This document shows, one piece after another, positions 36,769 to 49,320 of a DNA stretch of 64,000 bases. The DNA is from Verrucomicrobiota bacterium (GTDB lineage: Bacteria > Verrucomicrobiota > Verrucomicrobiia > Opitutales > UBA2995), in assembly GCA_027622555.1 (NCBI GenBank), contig JAQBYJ010000002.1:1-64000 (forward strand), read 5' to 3'. A model generated the notes under the pieces. The model ran no database searches and was not told the DNA's origin. It saw only the letters and a list, made by a program, of their open reading frames with translations. Both the position numbers and the translations under genes were made by a program. Position 1 is the first letter of the stretch. Each line of letters starts with the position of its first letter.

Positions 36769-37725
36769 TTATCCAATCAACGCCATCGCTTTTTTCAACG
36801 AAGCAATCGTTGCCTTACAGGCGGCATCGTCATCCAGATCGCGGAGAGGTTGATTGAAAGGCTCCGCTCGTGCGGGCCCATCGTAGCCGATTTTTACCAA
36901 CGCCTTGAGGAAAGGGTTGAGGTCTATGACGCCGGTCGCCAGGGGGAGTTCTCTCTGACCGTCTTGCTGCTGTTGTTTGTCAACGCCTTTGGGAGCGTCA
37001 TTCAAATCAACCAGTGTTATACTCTTGGGATCCAGTTTTGTGATGGCTTCGGCGCTGTCGCCAGCCTGCCACCAATGCCAGGAATCGAGAACGTAACCCA
37101 CGTTGCCTGTGCCGATGGCGGCACAGAGTTCCTGGGTTTCGGCAAGGGTATGTAAGAAAGGGTATTTGCCGCGAATGAGCAGAGTCGTGGTGCCAACGTA
37201 TTCGAAGCCGAGTCGGAGATCATTGTCCCGAAGTATCGTGGCTGCTTCCCATAGGCGACGGGTGTGCTGCTTGAAATTTTCATTGTAGGTCAGCTCGTCG
37301 TGCGAAGGCATGATCCACGTGTTCACCCGTGTGACGCCGGCTCTTTTCAGGCCAGCCGCGAGTTTTGGAAGCTCCTTCAGGTCTTCTTCGAATTTGGCGC
37401 GATCTTTTCTGAAGTCGACCGGAAGGCCGGAACTGCCCCAGCTGACCTTCTTTTTTGCCATGTCTTCCTGGAGGTCGTTTAATTGTTCTTTGCTTAAATC
37501 GGCCAGATAGTTGGCTTGTGCTTCAACGGACTCGAATCCGTATTGATGGGCGAGTTCGATCGATCGTTTTTGATCGGCCTTAATTCCAAGCGCTCCTCCT
37601 ACAAAGTTGATGGTGAATTTGCGCCCAGCTGATTTGTGATGGGCGGCGAACAGATTCGGGCCAATTGCTGCCGAGGCAGCGATTCCTGTTAGGGTGGATG
37701 TGCGGATAAAATCTCTACGATTCAT
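36769..37725 (-). CDS. Exported sugar phosphate isomerase/epimerase-like TIM barrel
   Basis: About 318 residues from the ATG at 37725, which starts a TAT signal (MNRRDFIRTSTLTGIAASAA). The mature part is a xylose-isomerase-like TIM barrel (AP-endonuclease 2 fold): YGFESVEAQANYL, RLGFEYVGT with a metal Glu, YVLDSWHWWQAGD with Asp and His ligands, LVDLNDAP, and a final Glu in GPARAEPFNQP. Such exported isomerases are frequent beside sulfatases and Gfo/Idh/MocA genes in Verrucomicrobiota. Divergent from the sulfatase at 37848. Confidence 0.88.
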   Translation of the reverse strand: MNRRDFIRTSTLTGIAASAAIGPNLFAAHHKSAGRKFTINFVGGALGIKADQKRSIELAHQYGFESVEAQANYLADLSKEQLNDLQEDMAKKKVSWGSSGLPVDFRKDRAKFEEDLKELPKLAAGLKRAGVTRVNTWIMPSHDELTYNENFKQHTRRLWEAATILRDNDLRLGFEYVGTTTLLIRGKYPFLHTLAETQELCAAIGTGNVGYVLDSWHWWQAGDSAEAITKLDPKSITLVDLNDAPKGVDKQQQQDGQRELPLATGVIDLNPFLKALVKIGYDGPARAEPFNQPLRDLDDDAACKATIASLKKAMALIG

Positions 37726-37847
37726 AGTGGTGACAGGGTAATGATGGTTTAAGATCCAAAACGTGATGAATTGAAGGCCACGGGTCAATGCTTCAACCGA
37801 GGTTGGTTCTTTATCGACAAGTTGCTGGGCTAAAATGAATCTGAGTT

Positions 37848-39731
37848 ATGAAGTTTTCACTCTACCCTAAATTCTTGATTTTTCCCATCCTGTTTTGGAG
37901 CACTTCTTTTACCGCTGCTCAGGACAAGCCCAACATCCTTTGGATATTTGCGGAGGACACTTCGCCCTGGATGGGCTGTTATGGTCATGAGGTCAATAAA
38001 GGTCACACACCACATATCGATTCGTTGGCAAATCAAGGGGTGTTGTTTAAACGGGCCTACGTTCCAGCGCCAGTCTGTTCAGCTTGTCGTTCTGCCCTCA
38101 TGGGCGGGATGAGCCAGATTCGGTTCAATGCCCATGAGCATCGCAGTTCGCGAGGTCCTGCCCAGCTGTTTCTGCCGGATGGCATGAAGCTGCTTCCTCA
38201 GATCATGAATGAAAATGGCTACTCCACCTTCAATTTAGGGAAGACCGACTATAACTTTATCCTCGCCGATAGTGAGATCTTCACTTTCAGTCAGAAACAG
38301 CGAGACCCGATTCCTTGGGATAAGGTAAAACAGCAGCAGCCATTTTACGGACAGATCCAGACCGCTGGAGGAAAGCAGAATACCAAGACTTGGCCAGAGG
38401 ACCGGAAAACTGACAGAAGCAAGGTTATTGTTCCAGCCGACTATCCTGACAATGCTGTTCAGCGTGAGGTGGTAGCCGAACACTACGATTCGATACGAAA
38501 GGATGATGATTTTATCGGTGAAATCCTGGAAGGTCTGAAAAGAAACGGACTCTGGGAAACTACCATCGTTGTTTATTTTGGAGACCATGGCGCCAATCAA
38601 CTGCTACGTCATAAGCAGATGCCGACTGAGGGTGGACTGCATGTGCCCTTCGCTGTTTACGGTCCTGAAAAGTGGGTACCTAGAAAACAGGTACGAAACG
38701 ATCTGGTAAATATGTTGGACTTGTCTGCAACAACCCTTGCCTGGGCTGGTATCCCCATTCCTGCGACTTGGGAAGGGCAGCATTTATTTGGCAAAGAATT
38801 TAAGGCGAGAGAATGGGTGGCTGCAGCGAAGGACCGTTTGGATCATACCATCGATCGGGTTCGAACGATTCGGACAGAGCAGTATCGCTACACCCGAAAT
38901 TACAAAACCGACCGCATTTTCCTTCAACCGCAGTACCGGGATACGCAGCCTTACACAAAAAATATGCATGACCTTTACCACGCGGGGAAATTGTCTGACC
39001 GCCACAAAGAAATCTATTTTGGAGAAAGGCCGGCTGAAGAATTTTACGACGTGGAAAAGGATCCGGCGCAGATGGTGAATCTGATCGACGATCCGAAACT
39101 CGCGGGTGAGATCCAACGTCATCGTCAGCTTCTCGATTCCTGGATTGTCAAGGGCGACTGTGGGGAAGGGGAAGAATCCCTCGATGAGTTGGCCTTTCAA
39201 GCCGATAACCGCTGGGGTTCCGTGAACCCCGAGTATGAGCTGGTTAGAATCGATCACGATGGAGACGGATTGTCGAGTGAGTGGGAGAAGGTAGTGAGAC
39301 GTGACCCAGACGACGGAAAATTGCAGTTTCTTTTTGATAATGGCGGTTGGCAGACTGAAGGGTGGGAGGCCGAAGGAAACCTTCCGAATATTGCGGGCTA
39401 TCTTGGGTTTCTGGACTTCGATCTACCGGATGGTCATGGAGCTATCGTGCGAAAGGGATTGAATGCGGACGCGGCCAGGAATTCCGGAGCTTTGGAGATT
39501 CGCGCAAAAGCGTCTTCGTCTTTGTTGGTTTGGCTCTTGGCCGAAAATGAATCAGGAAACATGGAATCAATTGCCGGTCCGGTTACCGTAAAAGAGTCGG
39601 ACCATTTCGCAACGTATTCATTGATGCTTGATGGCAATCCCAATTGGAGCGGAACTGTGAAAGAGCTTAAGCTATCCTTTAAAGGAGCGCCCGGAGTATT
39701 TTTGGAAATCGACTCTATAAAGGCCCAGTGA
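37848..39731 (+). CDS. Sulfatase with calcium-loop and jelly-roll C-terminal extension
   Basis: A 627-residue secreted type I sulfatase (Sec signal to about residue 24). Metal-binding start NILWIFAEDTSPWMGCYG; the formylglycine motif is VCSACRSALMGG, that is CxAxR in place of CxPxR. Later ligand block YFGDHGAN near residue 245. After the catalytic domain (to about 465) a DHDGDGLSSEWEK calcium-type loop leads into about 150 residues that look like a beta jelly roll (FLDFDLPDGHG...), perhaps a glycan-binding or sorting module. Substrate unknown. Convergent with the molybdenum oxidoreductase gene, 19 nt apart. Confidence 0.92.
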   Translation: MKFSLYPKFLIFPILFWSTSFTAAQDKPNILWIFAEDTSPWMGCYGHEVNKGHTPHIDSLANQGVLFKRAYVPAPVCSACRSALMGGMSQIRFNAHEHRSSRGPAQLFLPDGMKLLPQIMNENGYSTFNLGKTDYNFILADSEIFTFSQKQRDPIPWDKVKQQQPFYGQIQTAGGKQNTKTWPEDRKTDRSKVIVPADYPDNAVQREVVAEHYDSIRKDDDFIGEILEGLKRNGLWETTIVVYFGDHGANQLLRHKQMPTEGGLHVPFAVYGPEKWVPRKQVRNDLVNMLDLSATTLAWAGIPIPATWEGQHLFGKEFKAREWVAAAKDRLDHTIDRVRTIRTEQYRYTRNYKTDRIFLQPQYRDTQPYTKNMHDLYHAGKLSDRHKEIYFGERPAEEFYDVEKDPAQMVNLIDDPKLAGEIQRHRQLLDSWIVKGDCGEGEESLDELAFQADNRWGSVNPEYELVRIDHDGDGLSSEWEKVVRRDPDDGKLQFLFDNGGWQTEGWEAEGNLPNIAGYLGFLDFDLPDGHGAIVRKGLNADAARNSGALEIRAKASSSLLVWLLAENESGNMESIAGPVTVKESDHFATYSLMLDGNPNWSGTVKELKLSFKGAPGVFLEIDSIKAQ

Positions 39732-39750: not shown

Positions 39751-41034
39751 TCAAACTACCTCGAATTGACGTACTTGAATTCCGTTTTTGCCACTTCTTG
39801 CCGCGGGTCGAGGTTCTGGTTGTGCGTAGCCATTCAGATCGACCGCCCGAGCGCGAACTTCGTAGTGACCTGGTTTGAGATTGTTGATTTCTGTAAACCA
39901 AAATCCCACGCCGAAGCGTAGCGGCCATGTTTTGGGTTCTCCGGTTTTGGGATCGAAGCCCAGAATGTTTTTGGTGGAGATTCCATTTGGCAATTCCACG
40001 CTCCAATCAGGCTGGGGATAAATGTGGCAGGGTTTCCAGGGAGCACTAACAAATTCGGGATCGTCATCGTCGAGTGGCTCTTGCTCGGCACCGACCTTTC
40101 GAACCCAACATTCCACGCGTTCCAATCCAGATAAGCCGGATATGACTTGTCCGGTTACGGTAAGGATTTTTCCTGAGGAAACTTTCTCCGGAATTTCGGT
40201 GGTGTAGGCGGCCGTTTTAAGAAACGACTCGGGGTCATTGTTCTTTAGCGCGTAGGTATCGTTGCTCCGGTAATCGTTGGTAAGGAAAATGTGTTGAAGC
40301 CATTTAACCGATTTGAAGCCGTGTGACCAGGTAACGACCATTCTTACCGGTCCGCCCCGTATCGGTGGAATCGGTTTACCGTTGAGTTTATATGCAAGAA
40401 ATACGGGTAGCTCACCGGGTGGAGTTTCCATCGCCTGAGTATAACTGACGGAAGACTGGAAGATCTGTTCCGGATCGTTGTTGTGAAACCCCCAATAGTA
40501 GATGCGGCGAACATTATTCATCGATCCACAAAGACCAAGAATATCGCGCAACGGAACTCCTTCCCAGAGTCCTTGACCCAATGGAGAAGGAATGTTCAAG
40601 CATTGCATCGCCTTGATATATTTTACGCTCTTCATCTTTCCCAATTCCAAAAGCATCGGCAGATCGAGCGCCGTGCCGTCGGCCAAAGTGAGAGGATGAT
40701 TTACGGTCGCCGGTAGTTGAATGTTGGGCTCCTCTATGAACGGATCGGCCGTTATTTCCAATCGCCAACTTGCGGGAGTCATTCGCGCGTTTTCCAATGC
40801 CTGACCGGTAAGCGTATGTGGCTTAGGGTTCCCGCGGGCGACGGTATAGAAATCTTCAGCCGGAGTTAGTGCTGGAAAGGGGCAAACAGGTCCACCCGGA
40901 TAATTGCTTGCGATCGACTCGGGAGTCTCGGCCGCGTGGGAGATCGCTTTTCCCGCAAAGGTAGTAGCTGCTATGGCCGTAGACTTTATGACGAATCCGC
41001 GGCGCGAGATGGGATTGTTGTCCTTGGATTTCAT
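39751..41034 (-). CDS. Exported molybdopterin-dependent oxidoreductase (sulfite-oxidase family)
   Basis: A 427-residue TAT-exported protein (signal ISRRGFVIKSTAIAATTFAG). The sulfite-oxidase-type molybdenum cofactor domain covers about residues 110-290; the molybdenum-ligating Cys is in IKAMQCLNIP, followed by GVPLRDIL and VRMVVTWSHGFKSVKWL. The last 120 residues form the Ig-like Mo-co dimerisation domain. There is no haem domain. It may oxidise sulfite released from sulfated glycans or reduce an oxidised substrate; the neighbourhood with sulfatases favours sulfite but does not prove it. The nearest upstream gene on the same strand is the dehydratase-like gene at 41256-42497. Confidence 0.88.
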   Translation of the reverse strand: MKSKDNNPISRRGFVIKSTAIAATTFAGKAISHAAETPESIASNYPGGPVCPFPALTPAEDFYTVARGNPKPHTLTGQALENARMTPASWRLEITADPFIEEPNIQLPATVNHPLTLADGTALDLPMLLELGKMKSVKYIKAMQCLNIPSPLGQGLWEGVPLRDILGLCGSMNNVRRIYYWGFHNNDPEQIFQSSVSYTQAMETPPGELPVFLAYKLNGKPIPPIRGGPVRMVVTWSHGFKSVKWLQHIFLTNDYRSNDTYALKNNDPESFLKTAAYTTEIPEKVSSGKILTVTGQVISGLSGLERVECWVRKVGAEQEPLDDDDPEFVSAPWKPCHIYPQPDWSVELPNGISTKNILGFDPKTGEPKTWPLRFGVGFWFTEINNLKPGHYEVRARAVDLNGYAQPEPRPAARSGKNGIQVRQFEVV

Positions 41035-41255: not shown

Positions 41256-42497
41256 TCAGCCCCACCATTTTTCTCCTTGGACTAGATGCGCCTTAACCAC
41301 ATCTGGGTCGAGCTCGATTCCCAGGCCGGGCTTATCAGTCAGTTCTACGAATCCGTTCTTACACAACGGTTCATTGTGGACTATAACATCATCCATCCAG
41401 CCTCCGTTAAAGAAGACCGTTTCACAGGCGAGGTAATCACGAATGGATGATGCCCATTGAATAGATGCCATACCGTTCACGATGCTACCTGTATTATGAT
41501 TGGCCATGGGGAGAAAGTAGAGGTCTGCCAGATCTGCCATTCGTTTACTTTCCAGAAACCCGCCCGAGTTGCGTAGGTCGGGGTGTAAGATGTCGATGGC
41601 GGCATTCGTCACAAAGGGGAGTGCTTCTGATCGGCGCATCCAGTTCTCTCCCGTGCAAATAGGAACCGGCGACATTTCCGCCAGGCGTTTCCAGCTTTCG
41701 GAGTAGGGGACTGGTAGAGGATCTTCCAGCCATAACGGTTTTATAGAGGCAACCACCTCGGCCAGATCAATGGCACTTCGAAGATCGAATTCCCAATGGC
41801 ATCCGATCATAATGTCGTGGTCCCATCCCAATGCGTCGCGCGCGTTTTCAAATCCTTGGCGGAGGTTGCGAAGTTCCTTGCTGGAAAGCAGGCGATTGGA
41901 TGGATCTTTTCCAAAGTCATTTTCTGGCTTTGTACGGAATGGGCCAAACTTGTGGCAGTTAATTCCGTTGGGTGTTTCCATCACTTCCTCGGCCCAATCA
42001 CGACAGGCCTTTTTGTCGAGAAAATCTTTTGGAGTAGCGTGGTCGTACAATCGAACTTTGTCACGAAATCGGCCGCCTAATAATGTTGCCGATGGAACGT
42101 TCAGGATCTTCCCTGCCAAATCCCAGAGGGCCATTTCAATGCCACTAAAAGCGCGCTGTTGATGATGCGCACTGCCATCGGTGTAGCGATAACCGGTATA
42201 GAGTCGGTCGATTTCCAAAGGATCTTTTCCAATAAGGAATTCCTTCACTCCATGAATAGCTTCCACAATCCCCAGACCGGGAGAACCATAAGCCTCGGCG
42301 AATCCAAACAACCCTGCATCTGTTTCAATCTTTACCAGCGTATAGGTGCGCGCTCCATTCAGGAGCATGGTTTTAATATCGGTTATCTTGACCTTTCCTC
42401 TTTCGGAAGCCGCGTGCAGGGAATAGGATGAAAGCCAGGTGGCAGCTGTTGCCCCTGCCAATGTAGTCAAGAATGAGCGTCGTGATAATTGTGTCAT
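41256..42497 (-). CDS. Exported mandelate racemase/muconate lactonizing family dehydratase
   Basis: A 413-residue enolase-superfamily enzyme with a TAT signal (LSRRSFLTTLAGATAATWL). N-terminal capping domain, then the barrel with magnesium ligands visible at WEFD, WLEDPLP and CTGENW, and a catalytic His in MANHNTGS. The layout fits the galactonate/gluconate dehydratase-like branch, which removes water from aldonic acids to give 2-keto-3-deoxy acids. Export of such an enzyme is unusual outside PVC bacteria. It starts 12 nt after the stop of the PQQ sugar dehydrogenase, so the two probably form one transcript and consecutive reactions. Confidence 0.88.
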   Translation of the reverse strand: MTQLSRRSFLTTLAGATAATWLSSYSLHAASERGKVKITDIKTMLLNGARTYTLVKIETDAGLFGFAEAYGSPGLGIVEAIHGVKEFLIGKDPLEIDRLYTGYRYTDGSAHHQQRAFSGIEMALWDLAGKILNVPSATLLGGRFRDKVRLYDHATPKDFLDKKACRDWAEEVMETPNGINCHKFGPFRTKPENDFGKDPSNRLLSSKELRNLRQGFENARDALGWDHDIMIGCHWEFDLRSAIDLAEVVASIKPLWLEDPLPVPYSESWKRLAEMSPVPICTGENWMRRSEALPFVTNAAIDILHPDLRNSGGFLESKRMADLADLYFLPMANHNTGSIVNGMASIQWASSIRDYLACETVFFNGGWMDDVIVHNEPLCKNGFVELTDKPGLGIELDPDVVKAHLVQGEKWWG

Positions 42498-42509
42498 CGT
42501 TTTCGTGGG

Positions 42510-44015
42510 TTAGGTATCAGGGGTAAGTCGGAGTAAGAATCCTCGTTGATCTACCAAAATATAGAGTGCTCCGTCAGGGCCAGTAGTTATATCCCGAATT
42601 CGTCCGCAATCTTTTAGGATGAATTCTGCTTCAGTGACTGTGTCACCCTCGATAATAAGCCGGCGAATGTTCTTATGTTTCAGAGAGGCTACCAACAGGT
42701 TGTGTTTCCATTTTGGGAAAAGAGGGCTGGTGTTGAATTCGATGGCGCTCAGGGCAGGGGAGGGGGTCCAATATTTCATGGGCTGGGCCATGCCTTCCCT
42801 CTCCTTGTAAGGCGTAAGCGGCGTGTTGTCAGAATGCAGTCCCATTGTGATTACGGGCCAACCCAAGTTAACTCCTTTGGTAATTCTGTTCAGCTCATCA
42901 CCACCCATGGGACCATGTTCGGTCGACCAGATTTCGCCGGTTATTGGGTGAAACGCGAGTCCCTGGGCGTTGCGAGAGCCATAGGCAAAGATAGTTGGCA
43001 AAACGCCGGTAAGCCTCATGGCAGCAAATGGATTGTCTTTCGGGATTCTGCCATCGGGATGGATACGATGAATTTTACCTTCGGGTCTGGCCAGATTCTG
43101 CGCCTGTATCATCAGGTGACGGTCTCCAATGCTGAAATACAAATAGCCGTCCCGATCAAACAGCAGTCGTGAACCATAGTGATCCCGAACGAATGTGTAA
43201 GCATCTTCGGGTGCCGAGTAGATGACTTGCTGGTCTTTCCAATGCCCGTCTTTTATCCGACCTCGTACCACGCGCACCATGGACCGCTTGATTTCCTCGT
43301 TATCAAGAATTCTATCCGCTTCATGCGCGTAGACCAGATATATCCAACCGTTTTCGGCGTAATTCGGATCGGCTGCGATGTCGAGGTATCCCATACTTCC
43401 ATCGTCCGACAGCATCACTGCAAGGGGAGTATCTGCTATTGGTTGCTCCACAACTTTGTTATCAATCAGTAAGCGTAGCGCTCCGCCGTGCTCGGTAAAC
43501 ACCGCTGTCCGATCGTCGAGAAAAGTAATTCCCCATGGTTTGCTTAGGCCTTTCGCCACTATTTCGATTTTTAAGCGGTAATGTTCGGTATCGAAATGGC
43601 TGGGAGGTGGAGGTGGCTCGACCCTGAGTTCCGCCTCCACCTTGAGAATGTATTCCAGAACCGCATCGATTTCCGGGTCTGTCAGAACTGTATTCCAGGG
43701 CACCATCGGAGTTCCTATAATACCGAACGCGATATTACGTCTGTGTTGACCATCTCCGGAACCGTAATTCCAAACACCATCAATAAAACTTGCAGCCTGT
43801 CCGCCTTCCAGGTTGGGCCCATGACAAACTGCGCAATGCGTGGTGTAAACTTCCTTCCCGGTACGATCAGCCCTGGATACGAGCGGAAATACTAACAGGC
43901 ACAGAAACGCCAACACTGCGCGCCATGGCTGTACCAATCTTTTGAATAACGACTGTTCCGTGGGGAGTTCTTTTGCGGTTTTTGTTCGGATTTGGAATTT
44001 CAGGACCGTCATCAT
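42510..44015 (-). CDS. PQQ-dependent aldose dehydrogenase with N-terminal cytochrome c
   Basis: 501 residues. A membrane-targeting/signal segment (VLAFLCLLVFPLVSRA) ends near residue 50; the start at 44015 or the next Met gives the same protein. A cytochrome c domain follows with CAVCHG and a downstream GTPMVPW Met ligand. The C-terminal 340 residues are a soluble glucose dehydrogenase-type propeller: GKIHRIHPDGRIPKDNPF, GSRNAQGLAFHP and STEHGPMGGDELN, which bind PQQ and calcium. It should oxidise aldoses to lactones in the periplasm and pass electrons to its own haem. The dehydratase gene follows after 12 nt. Confidence 0.92.
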   Translation of the reverse strand: MMTVLKFQIRTKTAKELPTEQSLFKRLVQPWRAVLAFLCLLVFPLVSRADRTGKEVYTTHCAVCHGPNLEGGQAASFIDGVWNYGSGDGQHRRNIAFGIIGTPMVPWNTVLTDPEIDAVLEYILKVEAELRVEPPPPPSHFDTEHYRLKIEIVAKGLSKPWGITFLDDRTAVFTEHGGALRLLIDNKVVEQPIADTPLAVMLSDDGSMGYLDIAADPNYAENGWIYLVYAHEADRILDNEEIKRSMVRVVRGRIKDGHWKDQQVIYSAPEDAYTFVRDHYGSRLLFDRDGYLYFSIGDRHLMIQAQNLARPEGKIHRIHPDGRIPKDNPFAAMRLTGVLPTIFAYGSRNAQGLAFHPITGEIWSTEHGPMGGDELNRITKGVNLGWPVITMGLHSDNTPLTPYKEREGMAQPMKYWTPSPALSAIEFNTSPLFPKWKHNLLVASLKHKNIRRLIIEGDTVTEAEFILKDCGRIRDITTGPDGALYILVDQRGFLLRLTPDT

Positions 44016-44278
44016 TTATTTGATAGAGGGTGCTTTGCTAATGCGTGCTGACACGAAAAATTTCGATGACTGGTATTTGGGGTATATATGCTCATCAATC
44101 TCGGTTGGGGATCTTGCTTTGAAGAAAGCGATTTGATGGTTAAATACAAATTGTAGCTGTGGCAATCTGTTAGAAACCTTGCATTTAAATTTTATCGCGG
44201 GATAATTTTGAGTGTCCGAGTACTTTGCTTGGACGATTCTTTCAAGCAGACTGCGAATGGTCTTGGTAATTAGTTTTT

Positions 44279-45622
44279 ATGATTATGGGATTAATAAAAT
44301 TACGAATGAAAATAATAACCAAACTTAAGAACTTTGCCTTAGGATTTCTTTGTGCGTTTTTGCCCCTAGGAACGTTTGGCCAAAACTATGACATCTTGCT
44401 TAAAGGTGGGCATGTCATTGATGCGAAAAATGATATCGATGGGGTTTTTGACGTGGCGATTACCGGTAACCGAATTGCGGCGGTTGCGGTGAATATTCCT
44501 GAAAATGAGGGAAAGCTCATTGTCGATGCATCCGGCCTGTATGTGACGCCAGGCTTGATTGACTTGCATGCCCACATGTTCTGGGGAACGAGCGAAGGGG
44601 ATTACCTGGCAAATAGTTTCAGTGCCCTGCCGCCCGATGGATTTACTTTGCAGTATGGAGTGACCACCGCGGTGGACGCAGGAGGACCCGGCTGGAGGAA
44701 CTTCGAGCTTTATAAACGCCAAACCATAGACAAGTCCACGACACGAATAAAAGTGTTTCTCAATATTGTGGGTTCCGGAATGAGCGGGGATCCCGACGAG
44801 CAAGACGTTGGTGATATGGATCCCAAATTGGCAGCCATGATGGCCTTTGAGCACCCGAATGAGATTGTCGGGATAAAGCTGGCTCATTTTAAAGGTCCTA
44901 ATTGGATCCCCGTGCGAAAGGCGGTGGAGGCAGGTCGTTGGGCGAACATTCCTGTTATGGTCGATTTTGGTAGGTCTGAACCTTCTCTTTCAATTGAACA
45001 TTTATTCCTGGAAGAATTGAGACCTGGTGACATTTACACTCATTGCTTTGCAGATGCCTTGGGTCGGGAATCGATTGTGGATGAATCGGGAAAACTTAAA
45101 GATTTTGTTCCAAAGGCCATTAAGCGCGGTCTGATTTTTGATGTAGGACACGGTGCGGGAAGCTTTCGTTGGTCTGTTGCTATTCCGGCTCTTGAACAAG
45201 GCATGCGACCTCAAACCATCAGCACCGATCTTCACACTGGCAGCATGAATAGAGGCATGAAAAATCAGCTCAACGTCATGTCAAAATTGCTAAATATTGG
45301 CATGACTTTGGAGGAAGTAATCCTGGCATCTACCTGGAAGCCTGCGCAGGTCATCAAAATGGATGAGGACCTGGGCCACCTCAGTGTCGGCGCTTTGGCC
45401 GATGTCGCTGTTCTTCGAAAATTAGCGGGAAAGTTTGGATTCATCGACGTCGCTAATACCCGGTTCGATGGGACTGAAAAGTTGGTCTGTGAACTGACGA
45501 TTCTCGACGGAAAAGTAGTATGGGACCTGAACGGCATTTCTATGGAAAAGTGGGATGAAGCAATAATTCCGTCCGCTCCTGGACGATCGGAAGTTCTCAA
45601 TTTTATTAATCCACCAAAATGA
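44279..45622 (+). CDS. Exported amidohydrolase/deacetylase (EF_0837/AHA_3915-like)
   Basis: A 447-residue amidohydrolase-superfamily enzyme with a Sec signal (FALGFLCAFLPLGTFGQ). Metal ligands: HxH as DLHAHMFWG, the barrel Lys in IVGIKLAHF, His in DIYTHCF and FDVGHGAG, and Asp in STDLHTG. It resembles the group found beside SelA-like PLP enzymes in other bacteria, where the pair acts on N-acylated or cyclic amino-acid-like compounds. Its stop overlaps the RidA start (ATGA). First gene of the four-gene plus-strand cluster to 49320, and divergent from the sugar dehydrogenase. Confidence 0.88.
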   Translation: MIMGLIKLRMKIITKLKNFALGFLCAFLPLGTFGQNYDILLKGGHVIDAKNDIDGVFDVAITGNRIAAVAVNIPENEGKLIVDASGLYVTPGLIDLHAHMFWGTSEGDYLANSFSALPPDGFTLQYGVTTAVDAGGPGWRNFELYKRQTIDKSTTRIKVFLNIVGSGMSGDPDEQDVGDMDPKLAAMMAFEHPNEIVGIKLAHFKGPNWIPVRKAVEAGRWANIPVMVDFGRSEPSLSIEHLFLEELRPGDIYTHCFADALGRESIVDESGKLKDFVPKAIKRGLIFDVGHGAGSFRWSVAIPALEQGMRPQTISTDLHTGSMNRGMKNQLNVMSKLLNIGMTLEEVILASTWKPAQVIKMDEDLGHLSVGALADVAVLRKLAGKFGFIDVANTRFDGTEKLVCELTILDGKVVWDLNGISMEKWDEAIIPSAPGRSEVLNFINPPK

Positions 45623-46209
45623 AAAACACAGTCAATATATCAGTTGTCGCCATCGCCTTCCTGGGCTTTTTTCTATTCATATTTTCGCCGTTTTTTAAGG
45701 ACGGAAAAGAGAATACGGATACGAGTTTCGCTGCTCATCACGAGAGCTCGAGCTTTGAAGCGAATTTAAAGAAATCAGGAATTATTTTAAATACAGGAGC
45801 AAAGGCAAATGATCACTTTCTACCAGTCGTAGTTGCCGGGAATCTTGCTTTTCTGTCAGGGCATGGACCGAGAAAACCGGAAGGCGGTTCTGTCCAGGGA
45901 AAGGTAGGCAAAGACCTGACCATCGAGGAAGGTTATCATGCTGCACGTCTTACGATGATAGCGTTATTGTCATCCTTGAGAGAGGAGATCGGTAGTCTCG
46001 ATCGGGTAAAGCGGATTGTGAAAGTACACGGCATGGTGAATTGCACGGCAGATTTTACGCAACAACCTGCGGTAATAAACGGAGCCACAGCTGTGTTGAC
46101 CGAAATATTTGGTGACATGGGCAAGCCCGCTCGCGCCGCCGTTGGGATGGGATCTCTGCCCAGTAATATAGCGGTCGAGATCGAGATGATCGTGGAATTG
46201 CAGCCTTGA
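45619..46209 (+). CDS. Exported RidA-family (enamine/imine deaminase-like) protein
   Basis: 196 residues: an N-terminal hydrophobic signal or anchor (VAIAFLGFFLFIFSPFF), a short linker, then a RidA/YjgF domain from about residue 55. Conserved features include VVVAGNLAFLSGHGPRKP and PARAAVGMGSLPSNIAVEIE with the family Arg. RidA hydrolyses reactive 2-aminoacrylate-type enamines/imines made by PLP enzymes. An extracytoplasmic RidA is unusual. It overlaps the amidohydrolase gene by 4 nt and precedes two PLP-enzyme genes, which fits a role in clearing their intermediates. Confidence 0.9.
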   Translation: MKNTVNISVVAIAFLGFFLFIFSPFFKDGKENTDTSFAAHHESSSFEANLKKSGIILNTGAKANDHFLPVVVAGNLAFLSGHGPRKPEGGSVQGKVGKDLTIEEGYHAARLTMIALLSSLREEIGSLDRVKRIVKVHGMVNCTADFTQQPAVINGATAVLTEIFGDMGKPARAAVGMGSLPSNIAVEIEMIVELQP

Positions 46210-46661
46210 GAATATGAATTTACCGAGATGGTAAGAAAACTGAGATTTAAAGAATTGTTATGATTAATCTATCCTTGATTTACAATGTAGATTCATCCTC
46301 CGGTCGACTTGCCGAGTGTTCCTCCTTCCGCTCTCGGTCACGCAACATTGTGCGCTCCCTCGCTCCTCAGTCGTCAAGCTCGACATCTCGATCCGGTCAA
46401 GACCGCAATTCACTCGGAAATGTCGTGCGTCAATGCTACGTCGATTCGCCACCAAGGTGGCTCCTACCCTTAGATTCGGATAACGCGAATGTAGGAGTTA
46501 GCTTGCTGACGATTTTTCACACATTGACGGATCAAATATGGAGAGGCATCGAGCCGATTGCCTACGCAATTTCAATGGTGTCACCACCAATGCTGCATGT
46601 TCCTGAAGTAAAGGTAGGGTGGGATCGCCGATCGCGCCGAAATTCAAACCAATAAAATCCT
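46210..46661. other. Spacer with inverted repeats between ridA-like and PLP genes
   Basis: No supported gene in 452 nt. It holds a GTAGGAGTTAGCTTGCTGACGA half-palindrome near 46490, related to the REP-like arms elsewhere, preceded by CGTCGATTCGCCACC..GGTGGC (46438-46463), and GATCGCCGATCGCGCC near 46622. The four-gene cluster may therefore be two transcripts. Confidence 0.5.
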
Positions 46662-47882
46662 ATGATAAGCAGAAGAAAATTACTAAAACGGCTATCCAGC
46701 CTACCATTATTAGGTGGGCTTGCTGCTGGTGGGTTGGCACCGACAAAGTTACTCGCTGCAGAAAAATCCGTGAAGAGAAATTACTACGAGGAATTGGGCG
46801 TTCGGACGCTTATTAACGCCGCCGGAGCTTACACCACTCTCACTGCTTGCCTGATGCCCCGAGAAGTATTGGAAGCCTATACGGAGGCCGCTAAAGACTT
46901 TGTTTCATTAAACGATTTGCACGATGCTGTCGGCAAAAAGATTGCCGGTTTGGTGGGTTGTGAGGCCGCCATGGTTACCGCCGGAGCTGCCTCTGCCATG
47001 ACCCTGGCAACAGCCGGTGTTTTGACAGGCACCGATGAGGACAAAGCTAAACGTATCCCGATTGATCTCAGTGGCATGAAAAACGAGGTGATTGTGCAAA
47101 AAGAGCATATTGTAGGGTATACTCACGCAGTCATAAACTGTGGCATCAAGCTGGTGGTTGTTGAGTCGCGAAAGGAATTGCTGAATGCGATCAATAAAAA
47201 CACGGCCATGCTTTACTTTACTGACGTGCACAACTTTGACGGCTCGGTTCAAGAGGAGGAGTTTGTTCAAATAGGAAAGGAACGAAGCGTTCCAACTTTT
47301 AATGATGCTGCTGCCGCAGTACCGCCAAAAGAGAGTTTGTCAAGATACACCGATATGGGTTTCGACCTGGTGGCCATTTCCGGTGGCAAAGGAATTCGCG
47401 GACCTCAAAGCGCCGGGCTTTTGATTGGTCGAAAAGATCTGATTGAAGCAGCACGGTTCAATGCACCTCCTACGTCTGACCGTATTGGTCGGGGAATGAA
47501 GGTAAACAAGGAAGAAATGGTTGCTATGTGGATCGCACTGGAAAGGTACATGAAACACGATGTGGAGAAGGAGCATATGTTCTGGAAACAACAGATCGAT
47601 TGGTTAGAAGATACTCTCTCACCTATTGACGGAGTAATAACCGAGAACTTCGTTCCTCAGCGTCCCAACAATGTGCCCACTTTAAAGTTGTCCTGGAACC
47701 GGAGCAAAATCCCGGCATCTGGATTTGATATCCAAAAAGCTCTCCGCGATGGAGAACCATCCATAGAGATTGCTAGAACTCACGAAGACGGATTTAACAT
47801 CACCACCTGGATGTTGCAACCCGATCAGCTCGAAACCGTAGGTGCTCGGGTGAAGGCGGAACTTAAAAAGGCCCATGTTTGA
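46662..47882 (+). CDS. TAT-exported SelA-like PLP-dependent enzyme, copy A
   Basis: 406 residues. The start carries a twin-arginine signal (SRRKLLKRLSSLPLLGGLAA). The mature part is a fold-type I PLP enzyme of the SelA-related family that includes D-glucosaminate-6-phosphate ammonia-lyase: GVRTLINAAGAYTTLT, CEAAMVTAGAASAMTLA, the PLP-ring Asp in TFNDAAAAVPP (residue 215), and the Schiff-base Lys in SGGKGIRGPQSAG (Lys243). The family catalyses elimination of ammonia or water from amino-acid-like substrates. TAT export would carry the folded, PLP-loaded enzyme. A second copy of identical length follows. Confidence 0.9.
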   Translation: MISRRKLLKRLSSLPLLGGLAAGGLAPTKLLAAEKSVKRNYYEELGVRTLINAAGAYTTLTACLMPREVLEAYTEAAKDFVSLNDLHDAVGKKIAGLVGCEAAMVTAGAASAMTLATAGVLTGTDEDKAKRIPIDLSGMKNEVIVQKEHIVGYTHAVINCGIKLVVVESRKELLNAINKNTAMLYFTDVHNFDGSVQEEEFVQIGKERSVPTFNDAAAAVPPKESLSRYTDMGFDLVAISGGKGIRGPQSAGLLIGRKDLIEAARFNAPPTSDRIGRGMKVNKEEMVAMWIALERYMKHDVEKEHMFWKQQIDWLEDTLSPIDGVITENFVPQRPNNVPTLKLSWNRSKIPASGFDIQKALRDGEPSIEIARTHEDGFNITTWMLQPDQLETVGARVKAELKKAHV

Positions 47883-48099
47883 TCGGCCAACCACCCGATG
47901 CAATGTTAAGTTAAAACGATAGAAATTTCACTGATAAACAATGTCTCAAAACTAGAAAATATCGGCGGCAGAGCCTGCCTTCGCACAAGGCTTCGGCATG
48001 ATGCGACAGGGATGCTCTTGCCCTACCAATTCGACCAAAAAAGGTAGGGCTACTGCGTCCTCGCAGTGCCGCTCATTCACTCAAATTTGGAGAAAAATT
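47883..48099. repeat. Spacer with degenerate REP-like palindromes
   Basis: The 217 nt between the paralogous PLP genes contain two decayed inverted repeats: GGCAGAGCCTGCC near 47969, and GTAGGGCTACTGCGTCCTCGCAGTGCCGC near its end, flanked by CCCTACC. The right end gives a good ribosome site (GGAG, 48089-48092) for the next gene. Confidence 0.55.
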
Positions 48100-49320
48100 A
48101 TGCCAAGCAGAAGAACAGTACTAAAACAGTTATCGAGTCTACCAGTAATTGGAGGAGTTGCAGTTGGTGGATTAATAGGTGGCAGGGAAGTTTCCGGCGC
48201 CAGTCACTCTCAAAGAGATTATTACAAGGAGCTTGGGCTGAAAACATTTATAAATGCAGCTGGTACCTACACGGCTTTGACGGGATGCCTGATGCCCAAG
48301 GAGGTCATTGATGCCTATACCTATGCGTCAAACGAATACGTGGGGCTCAACGAACTGCAGGACGCCGTTGGCAAGAAGATTGCCGAAATGATTGGTTGCG
48401 AGGCGGCCATGGTAACGGCCGGTGCTGCTTCGGCAATGACGCTAGGGACCGCAGGTATCTTAACCGGAACCGATGACGACAAGGCCAAGAGGATTCCCAA
48501 TGATCTTAGTGGTATGAAGGACGAAGTAATCGTTCAGGAATCGCATGTTATCGGTTATTCGCATGCTATAAAAAACTGTGGCGTTAAATTGATCGTTGTT
48601 AAAACACGGAACGAGCTGATCAACGCGATTAACGACAAGACAGCCATGCTTTATTTTACGAACTATGCGAACAACGATGGTCAGGTGCAGGACAAGGAGT
48701 TTGCAGAGATTGGAAAACGATATGGTATTCCTTCATTAAACGATGCGGCTGCCGATACGCCCCCAAAGAATCGGCTTTCGATGTACATCGATATGGGTTT
48801 CGACCTCGTCACGTTTTCCGGCGGTAAGGGTATCAGGGGGCCACAAAGTGCCGGGTTGTTGTATGGAAGAAAAGACCTGATCGAGGCTGCGCGTTTTAAC
48901 GCTCCTCCCAACGGCGATCGAATTGGTCGCGGAATGAAAGTAAACAAGGAAGAGATCGTCGCGATGTGGATAGCCTTGGAGACATTTTTGAAAATGGATT
49001 TGGATAAGGAATGGAAACTCTGGGAAAAACAGATCGATCTGATTGAACGTGCGGCTTCCTCGGTGGATGGCATCACTACCAAAATTTATGTGCCGGAAAT
49101 CAACAACCATGTTCCTACACTGGACATTAGTTGGGATACTGCCAGATTCCCTATGTCGGGTACCGAATTTCAAACAGCATTACGTGATGGTTCCCCTTCA
49201 ATCGCTGTCGCCCGTCCGGCTGAAAATTCTGTCAACATTACTACCTGGATGATGGTCCCAGGACAAGAAAAGGTAGTAGCCAGACGCATAAAGGAGGAAT
49301 TGCAAAAGGCCCGCGCCTGA
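48100..49320 (+). CDS. TAT-exported SelA-like PLP-dependent enzyme, copy B
   Basis: 406 residues from the ATG at 48100; a GGAG sits 8 nt upstream, and the TAT signal (PSRRTVLKQLSSLPVIGGVA) starts there, so the longer frame from 47998 is rejected. It is a clear paralogue of copy A, same length, with the same catalytic blocks (SLNDAAADTPP with the PLP Asp, FSGGKGIRGPQSAG with Lys243). Differences cluster in loops, for example the DVHNFDGS region of copy A reads NYANNDGQ here. Two retained copies suggest either distinct substrates or a hetero-oligomer. Confidence 0.9.
   Translation: MPSRRTVLKQLSSLPVIGGVAVGGLIGGREVSGASHSQRDYYKELGLKTFINAAGTYTALTGCLMPKEVIDAYTYASNEYVGLNELQDAVGKKIAEMIGCEAAMVTAGAASAMTLGTAGILTGTDDDKAKRIPNDLSGMKDEVIVQESHVIGYSHAIKNCGVKLIVVKTRNELINAINDKTAMLYFTNYANNDGQVQDKEFAEIGKRYGIPSLNDAAADTPPKNRLSMYIDMGFDLVTFSGGKGIRGPQSAGLLYGRKDLIEAARFNAPPNGDRIGRGMKVNKEEIVAMWIALETFLKMDLDKEWKLWEKQIDLIERAASSVDGITTKIYVPEINNHVPTLDISWDTARFPMSGTEFQTALRDGSPSIAVARPAENSVNITTWMMVPGQEKVVARRIKEELQKARA

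Follow-up and report, generated by a model that had tools for sequence, protein, structure and literature searches.

What could link an exported sugar dehydrogenase, an exported amidohydrolase, an exported Rid-family protein and two Tat-exported PLP enzymes in a single locus of a member of the Opitutales? The six genes concerned (Table 1) lie within a 64,000-nt stretch of DNA that was analysed as a whole (hereafter the window), and a first-pass annotation had proposed that they oxidise N-acyl-amino sugars, remove the acyl group and eliminate ammonia or water outside the cytoplasm.

Gene content and layout of the locus

All six genes were recovered in the places and broad families given by the first-pass annotation, together with the 12-nt spacing of the minus-strand pair, the ATGA overlap of the amidohydrolase and Rid genes and an export-type leader, read from the sequence, at the N-terminus of every product. 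PLP2 is present and of the Tat-exported type as described, but its start most likely lies at 48100 and not at 47998, because the Tat signal MPSRRTVLKQLSSLPVIGG begins there. About 450 nt separate Rid from PLP1 and about 217 nt PLP1 from PLP2, so that the window by itself gives no clear sign of a single transcript spanning the four plus-strand genes. The long stretches flanking PLP1 (46210-46660 and 47890-48099) hold no family-assigned gene; they look repeat-like, but a search inside them turned up no repeats, and the single motif that was examined occurs once in the window.

Table 1. Genes of the locus, with coordinates in the window and family evidence
Feature	Coordinates	Strand	Evidence
Enolase-superfamily (MR_MLE) protein, Tat signal	41256..42497	-	Pfam PF13378/PF02746
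Cytochrome c + PQQ-type aldose dehydrogenase (GSDH) fusion, exported	42510..44015	-	PF07995 338 bits, PF13442
Amidohydrolase, COG3964/PRK09237 type, exported	44279..45622	+	NF006689 411.8 bits
Rid-family protein (PF14588), exported	45619..46209	+	Arg105/Glu120 equivalents present
PLP enzyme 1 (PLP1), Tat-exported, DgaE/SelA-like	46662..47882	+	TIGR01437 169 bits, below cut-off
PLP enzyme 2 (PLP2), Tat-exported, older PLP1 paralogue	48100..49320	+	63% identity to PLP1

A molybdopterin oxidoreductase gene with a Tat signal, distantly SorT-like (39751-41034), follows the enolase-superfamily gene in the same orientation, 221 nt downstream, and is possibly part of the minus-strand arm. Genes for a xylose-isomerase-like TIM barrel protein with a Tat signal and for an exported sulfatase (36769-39731) also adjoin the locus, and the region resembles an island of exported catabolic genes.

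The GSDH-cytochrome c protein carries a CAVCH haem motif at residue 61, and its nearest solved relatives are 7cdy and 2g8s. Conserved His and Arg-Asn motifs are present, with DHYGSRL and YGSRNAQG in register with 7cdy, and the protein is predicted to be a PQQ aldose sugar dehydrogenase of the Asd/GSDH type that oxidises sugars.

The enolase-superfamily protein (Tat signal LSRRSFLTTLAG) reached 174.7 bits against a cut-off of 750 for NF040790 and is distant from the gluconate and galactonate dehydratases. Alignment with 2qq6 and relatives placed Gly at the first metal-ligand Asp (IGCHWEFD); the same residue is Gly in an orthologue of 89% identity and mostly Gly, Ala, Val or His in the nearest subfamily. 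In that subfamily (the window protein and relatives at loci L163, L251-L256, L076 and L225) an HxE motif follows the substituted position, and metal binding may differ from that of the known enzymes. A canonical sugar-acid dehydratase of the GalD/ManD type is doubted on account of the missing Asp, and a dehydratase role in general is doubtful because the subfamily lacks this residue. The dehydratase step of the earlier proposal gains no support: besides the absent ligand, the gene is linked to the others in only one congener (G005). Another Tat enolase-superfamily gene of the same genome (L159, contig C114) adjoins genes for an exported RraA-like protein and an exported cupin protein, a candidate for a further exported sugar-acid cluster.

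Conservation of the amidohydrolase, Rid and PLP genes

In congener G004, a one-contig genome, the amidohydrolase, Rid and PLP genes are tightly arranged in this order, with the first two overlapping and 18 nt between Rid and PLP. The same trio is kept in G006 and in an Opitutaceae EAC85 MAG (L032), and in congener G005 it is accompanied by orthologues of the dehydrogenase (71%) and of the enolase-superfamily protein (89%) and by three more enolase-superfamily genes. Downstream of its intact copy, G006 also has a 47-residue piece of another PLP gene (4613-4753 of L027), probably a decayed tandem copy. No PLP gene was present in G007 or in either sister-genus genome. Among 388 sampled Verrucomicrobiota genomes the PLP family is rare, with strict-threshold matches in three besides the genome of the window, all only about 32% identical. 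A locus from a distant family of the order (L029) holds a RraA-PLP-amidohydrolase trio in which RraA and the amidohydrolase are without leaders, and no Rid gene was detected nearby.

A scan with the PLP alignment covered 84,980 species at one genome per species, and the best 80 loci, mostly from Bacteroidota and Acidobacteria, were kept. Clustering of ORFs around these and two congeners (82 loci) recovered an exported amidohydrolase at 59 loci, a Tat-type Rid protein at 53, GSDH-cytochrome c at 37, a window-type Rid protein at 31, an SBF/BASS transporter at 23, an exported RraA-like protein at 22, a CBM9 protein at 19 and an SMP-30 lactonase at 17. One common order in Bacteroidota is CBM9, GSDH-cytochrome c, amidohydrolase, SBF, RraA, Rid, PLP, Rid. 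Seven Rid-family matches in the 6.0 Mb of the window's own genome imply that roughly 2% of 20-kb stretches would hold one by chance; the proximity of Rid and PLP genes (53/82 for the Tat type, 31/82 for the window type) exceeds this. Because the census loci share ancestry and had been chosen by similarity rank, 296 Bacteroidota genomes were also sampled evenly. The PLP family occurred in six of these besides the centre genome; each of the six had one or more loci that combine amidohydrolase and Rid, five also had GSDH-cytochrome c and/or lactonase, and several loci adjoined SusC/SusD.

Acidobacterial members are mostly solitary. Two genomes, G530 and G529, have about 14 and about 7 matches each, again mostly solitary and many with Tat signals (L220-L227, L237-L247). 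A row of genes in the window's own genome (L158, contig C71) encodes GSDH-cytochrome c, an SBF/BASS transporter, an exported RraA-like protein and an FG-GAP lipoprotein, and matches the Bacteroidota module minus the PLP trio.

The conserved unit is an exported amidohydrolase, one or more exported Rid proteins and a Tat-exported PLP enzyme, found in Opitutales and widely in Bacteroidota. Joint conservation, which the first-pass annotation had set as a check of the whole gene set, extends far beyond the genus for this plus-strand core, but only two genomes also have the minus-strand pair linked to it. A quick tree placed the six Opitutales PLP sequences together in one group (support 100) inside the Bacteroidota module group, a topology compatible with horizontal transfer into Opitutales; the Acidobacterial copies, mostly partnerless, fell outside the module group, and DgaE and Cap15 further out. 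A search of open-licence papers found no description of exported RraA/Rid/SelA-like clusters, of a periplasmic glucosaminate pathway or of the present module.

Catalytic residues and compartment

Both PLP enzymes are TIGR01437-like, and the Schiff-base lysine of PLP1 is Lys243. Although they had been compared with DgaE and SelA, neither assignment stands. Scores against curated profiles (169 bits for TIGR01437 and 152 bits) were below the cut-offs of 385 and 600, and SelA selenocysteine synthase was rejected at 47 bits against 267.9 for TIGR00474. The Schiff-base lysine (K213 in DgaE numbering) is kept in 82/82 family members and both window copies, as is the His at DgaE position 112 (82/82), and Arg or Lys occupies the carboxylate site. 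Arg301 is absent in 82/82 and Arg332 in most; these residues, shared by DgaE and Cap15, were placed near the phosphate in a DgaE docking model. The window enzymes have Thr and Ala there, and the relatives mostly Ser/Thr and Val/Ala. Because the phosphate arginines are lost, an unphosphorylated substrate is implied. An equivalent of His-163 is also missing in 82/82 proteins, the column being approximate as the loop differs in length. A canonical DgaE was rejected on these residues. In DgaE the C-3 proton comes from His-163, and the enzyme releases its enamine once this residue is removed (Phillips and co-workers, PMC9529869). Another residue could supply the proton in the present family, and the cytosolic-type PLP relative at L029 also lacks His-163 with no Rid gene detected nearby, so that loss of this residue does not always go with Rid.

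The amidohydrolase has a Sec-type leader, scored above the NF006689 cut-off of 371 and, in alignment with 8je0, retains the binuclear metal motifs HAH, K, H, H and D (starting at residues 97, 200, 254, 289 and 315). The window Rid protein begins with a hydrophobic leader and has Arg and Glu at the Arg105 and Glu120 positions, the former being the Arg of a PAR motif 15 residues before the latter. Arg105 is kept in 67/67 Tat-type and 41/41 window-type proteins, and Glu120 in 66/67 and 41/41. As Arg105 of RidA is needed for imine hydrolysis (PMC4433059), the window protein is predicted to be a RidA-type imine deaminase. The idea that it acts on enamines from the PLP enzymes draws support from the retained Arg105 and the missing His-163. 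In the RraA-like proteins the Arg123-Asp124 motif, essential in HMG/CHA aldolase (PMC5065237), is kept in 30/30, including two copies elsewhere in the window's own genome; none lies within the window.

Export was called with a simple home-made heuristic for sequence signals. By this measure 79/83 PLP enzymes have Tat signals, and export signals are present in 31/31 window-type Rid proteins, 35/37 GSDH-cytochrome c proteins and, among untruncated copies, 20/20 RraA and 58/60 amidohydrolases, in agreement with the extracytoplasmic location first proposed for the PLP enzymes and Rid. The partners seem to change compartment together, to judge by the leaderless RraA and amidohydrolase of L029. Established examples of Tat-exported enzymes already loaded with PLP are PvdN and PtaA (PMC6206403).

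A putative periplasmic route and its alternatives

Gene identity, joint conservation, export-type signals and the catalytic residues retained or lost are the observed basis on which the locus is best read as a periplasmic counterpart of the DgaE pathway that works on unphosphorylated compounds. We hold it to be an evenly balanced proposition that the locus represents, in local form, a widespread module that breaks down a sugar-derived 2-amino acid outside the cytoplasm. The exported PQQ dehydrogenase/cytochrome c would oxidise the sugar end to a lactone or acid, and the exported amidohydrolase would remove the acyl group. The PLP enzyme, exported folded with its cofactor through Tat, would then eliminate the beta-hydroxyl and, because it lacks the proton-donor His of DgaE, may release an enamine or imine. 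Exported Rid would hydrolyse this to ammonia and a 2-keto-3-deoxy acid, to be cleaved by an exported RraA-type class II pyruvate aldolase encoded elsewhere in the genome, with the cleavage product imported by an SBF/BASS transporter. A 2-keto-3-deoxy acid shows the 4-hydroxy-2-oxo pattern that aldolases of this kind cut. The order of steps, beta-elimination and enamine release are what we infer from these genes. The aldolase, lactonase and transporter genes were missed in the first-pass annotation because they are not in the window, and it is these that make the pathway plausible. The full series of oxidation, lactone opening, deacylation, PLP elimination with enamine release, Rid hydrolysis, aldol cleavage and import is put forward tentatively, at somewhat below an even chance. 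The substrate, guessed from context, would be an N-acyl hexosaminate or similar; sugars are suggested by the partners, namely CBM9-type carbohydrate-binding proteins, lactonase and SusC/D.

The two divergent arms may, on the other hand, have nothing to do with each other: in a genome with many exported catabolic genes, a pair for sugar oxidation could simply lie next to an amidohydrolase-Rid-PLP operon. We give this a substantial but minority probability, and it is compatible with the best explanation of the plus-strand arm. The minus-strand arm is absent beside the module in G004 and L032, and a search for the enolase-superfamily orthologue gave no match above threshold in G004, G006, G007 or G831. 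Dehydrogenase relatives in G003, G004, G006 and G007 are only 44-46% identical, no closer than paralogues, and a 55% relative occurs in G001 and G002, both without the PLP gene. With 16 GSDH and 34 enolase-superfamily matches in the genome, chance neighbours of either kind are not rare. Nevertheless, G005 keeps both arms together, and GSDH-cytochrome c of another build recurs beside the module in Bacteroidota, which bears out the earlier suggestion of a propeller sugar dehydrogenase as partner. The window enzyme, an Asd-type protein, has its cytochrome c at the N-terminus, whereas the Bacteroidota protein is a weaker GSDH match and has it at the C-terminus; the two are analogous and not necessarily orthologous.

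Oxidative chemistry is a further alternative, in which the PLP enzymes would use O2 as oxidases or monooxygenase-decarboxylases, in the manner of Cap15 or PvdN, and convert an amino acid to an amide or keto product, and Rid would hydrolyse an oxidation-derived imine. The AlphaFold model of the PLP enzyme (mean pLDDT 88.7) matches Cap15 and DgaE about equally, 8t7j being the top match for PLP1, level with 7lc0, which leaves room for an O2-dependent reaction; Cap15 and periplasmic PvdN are O2-using PLP enzymes (PMC6411801, PMC11794154). Identity is, however, equally low to Cap15 and DgaE (26% and 28%), Args 301 and 332 common to both are lost here, and the recurrent partners, among them a lactonase and an aldolase that has the pyruvate-enolate Arg, are easier to reconcile with a keto-deoxy acid than with an amide as the product; we think this reading quite improbable. 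Degradation of a non-sugar D-amino acid derivative (N-acyl-D-amino acids, 2-hydroxy-acid esters or peptidoglycan-derived muramate-like compounds) would be in keeping with the loss of the DgaE phosphate-binding residues and with the Atu3266-like COG3964 amidohydrolases, for which acyl-(R)-hydroxy acids are reported as hydrolysis substrates and N-acetyl-D-serine as a weak one. The recurrent carbohydrate context of CBM9, SMP-30 lactonase, GSDH propeller and SusC/SusD speaks against it, and we think it unlikely.

The DgaE-like reading can be set beside several known systems. The module shares with the DgaE pathway the PLP fold, the Schiff-base lysine and, in many relatives, the pairing with a pyruvate-type aldolase; it differs in being exported, in lacking the phosphate arginines, His-163 and a PTS, in its added Rid proteins and in having an RraA-type aldolase instead of DgaF. 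PvdN and PtaA, from pyoverdine maturation in pseudomonads, are likewise PLP enzymes exported folded through Tat, but they are different enzymes with other reactions and serve biosynthetic tailoring, whereas the module would be catabolic; we know of no Rid or amidohydrolase partners for them. Cap15 (an O2- and PLP-dependent monooxygenase-decarboxylase) is the closest fold match, but is biosynthetic and still has both Args where DgaE has its phosphate site. The trio at L029 has the same PLP and amidohydrolase families adjoining, but differs in that its RraA and amidohydrolase have no export signals and no Rid gene was found nearby; EF_0837/EF_0838-type gene pairs likewise place these two families next to each other. 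The module Rid has the catalytic Arg105 and Glu120 equivalents of the RidA/YjgF imine deaminases, but is exported, whereas the characterised RidA proteins act, to our knowledge, inside the cytoplasm or in organelles.

In the cytoplasm, Rid proteins shield enzymes from 2-aminoacrylate and related enamines. The pairing of an exported Rid with a His-less PLP enzyme suggests a second strategy, in which dangerous chemistry is kept outside and the intermediate is hydrolysed there; DgaE-like chemistry has apparently been moved out of the cytoplasm with Rid proteins attached. If true, Bacteroidota and Verrucomicrobiota would have a periplasmic catabolic route for nitrogen-bearing sugars, reactive enamines and ammonia would be made outside the cytoplasm, and, as far as we know, Rid proteins and a DgaE-like enzyme would for the first time have a role outside the cytoplasm. 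It would also give testable assignments to families that carry the misleading names selenocysteine synthase, dihydroorotase and endoribonuclease.
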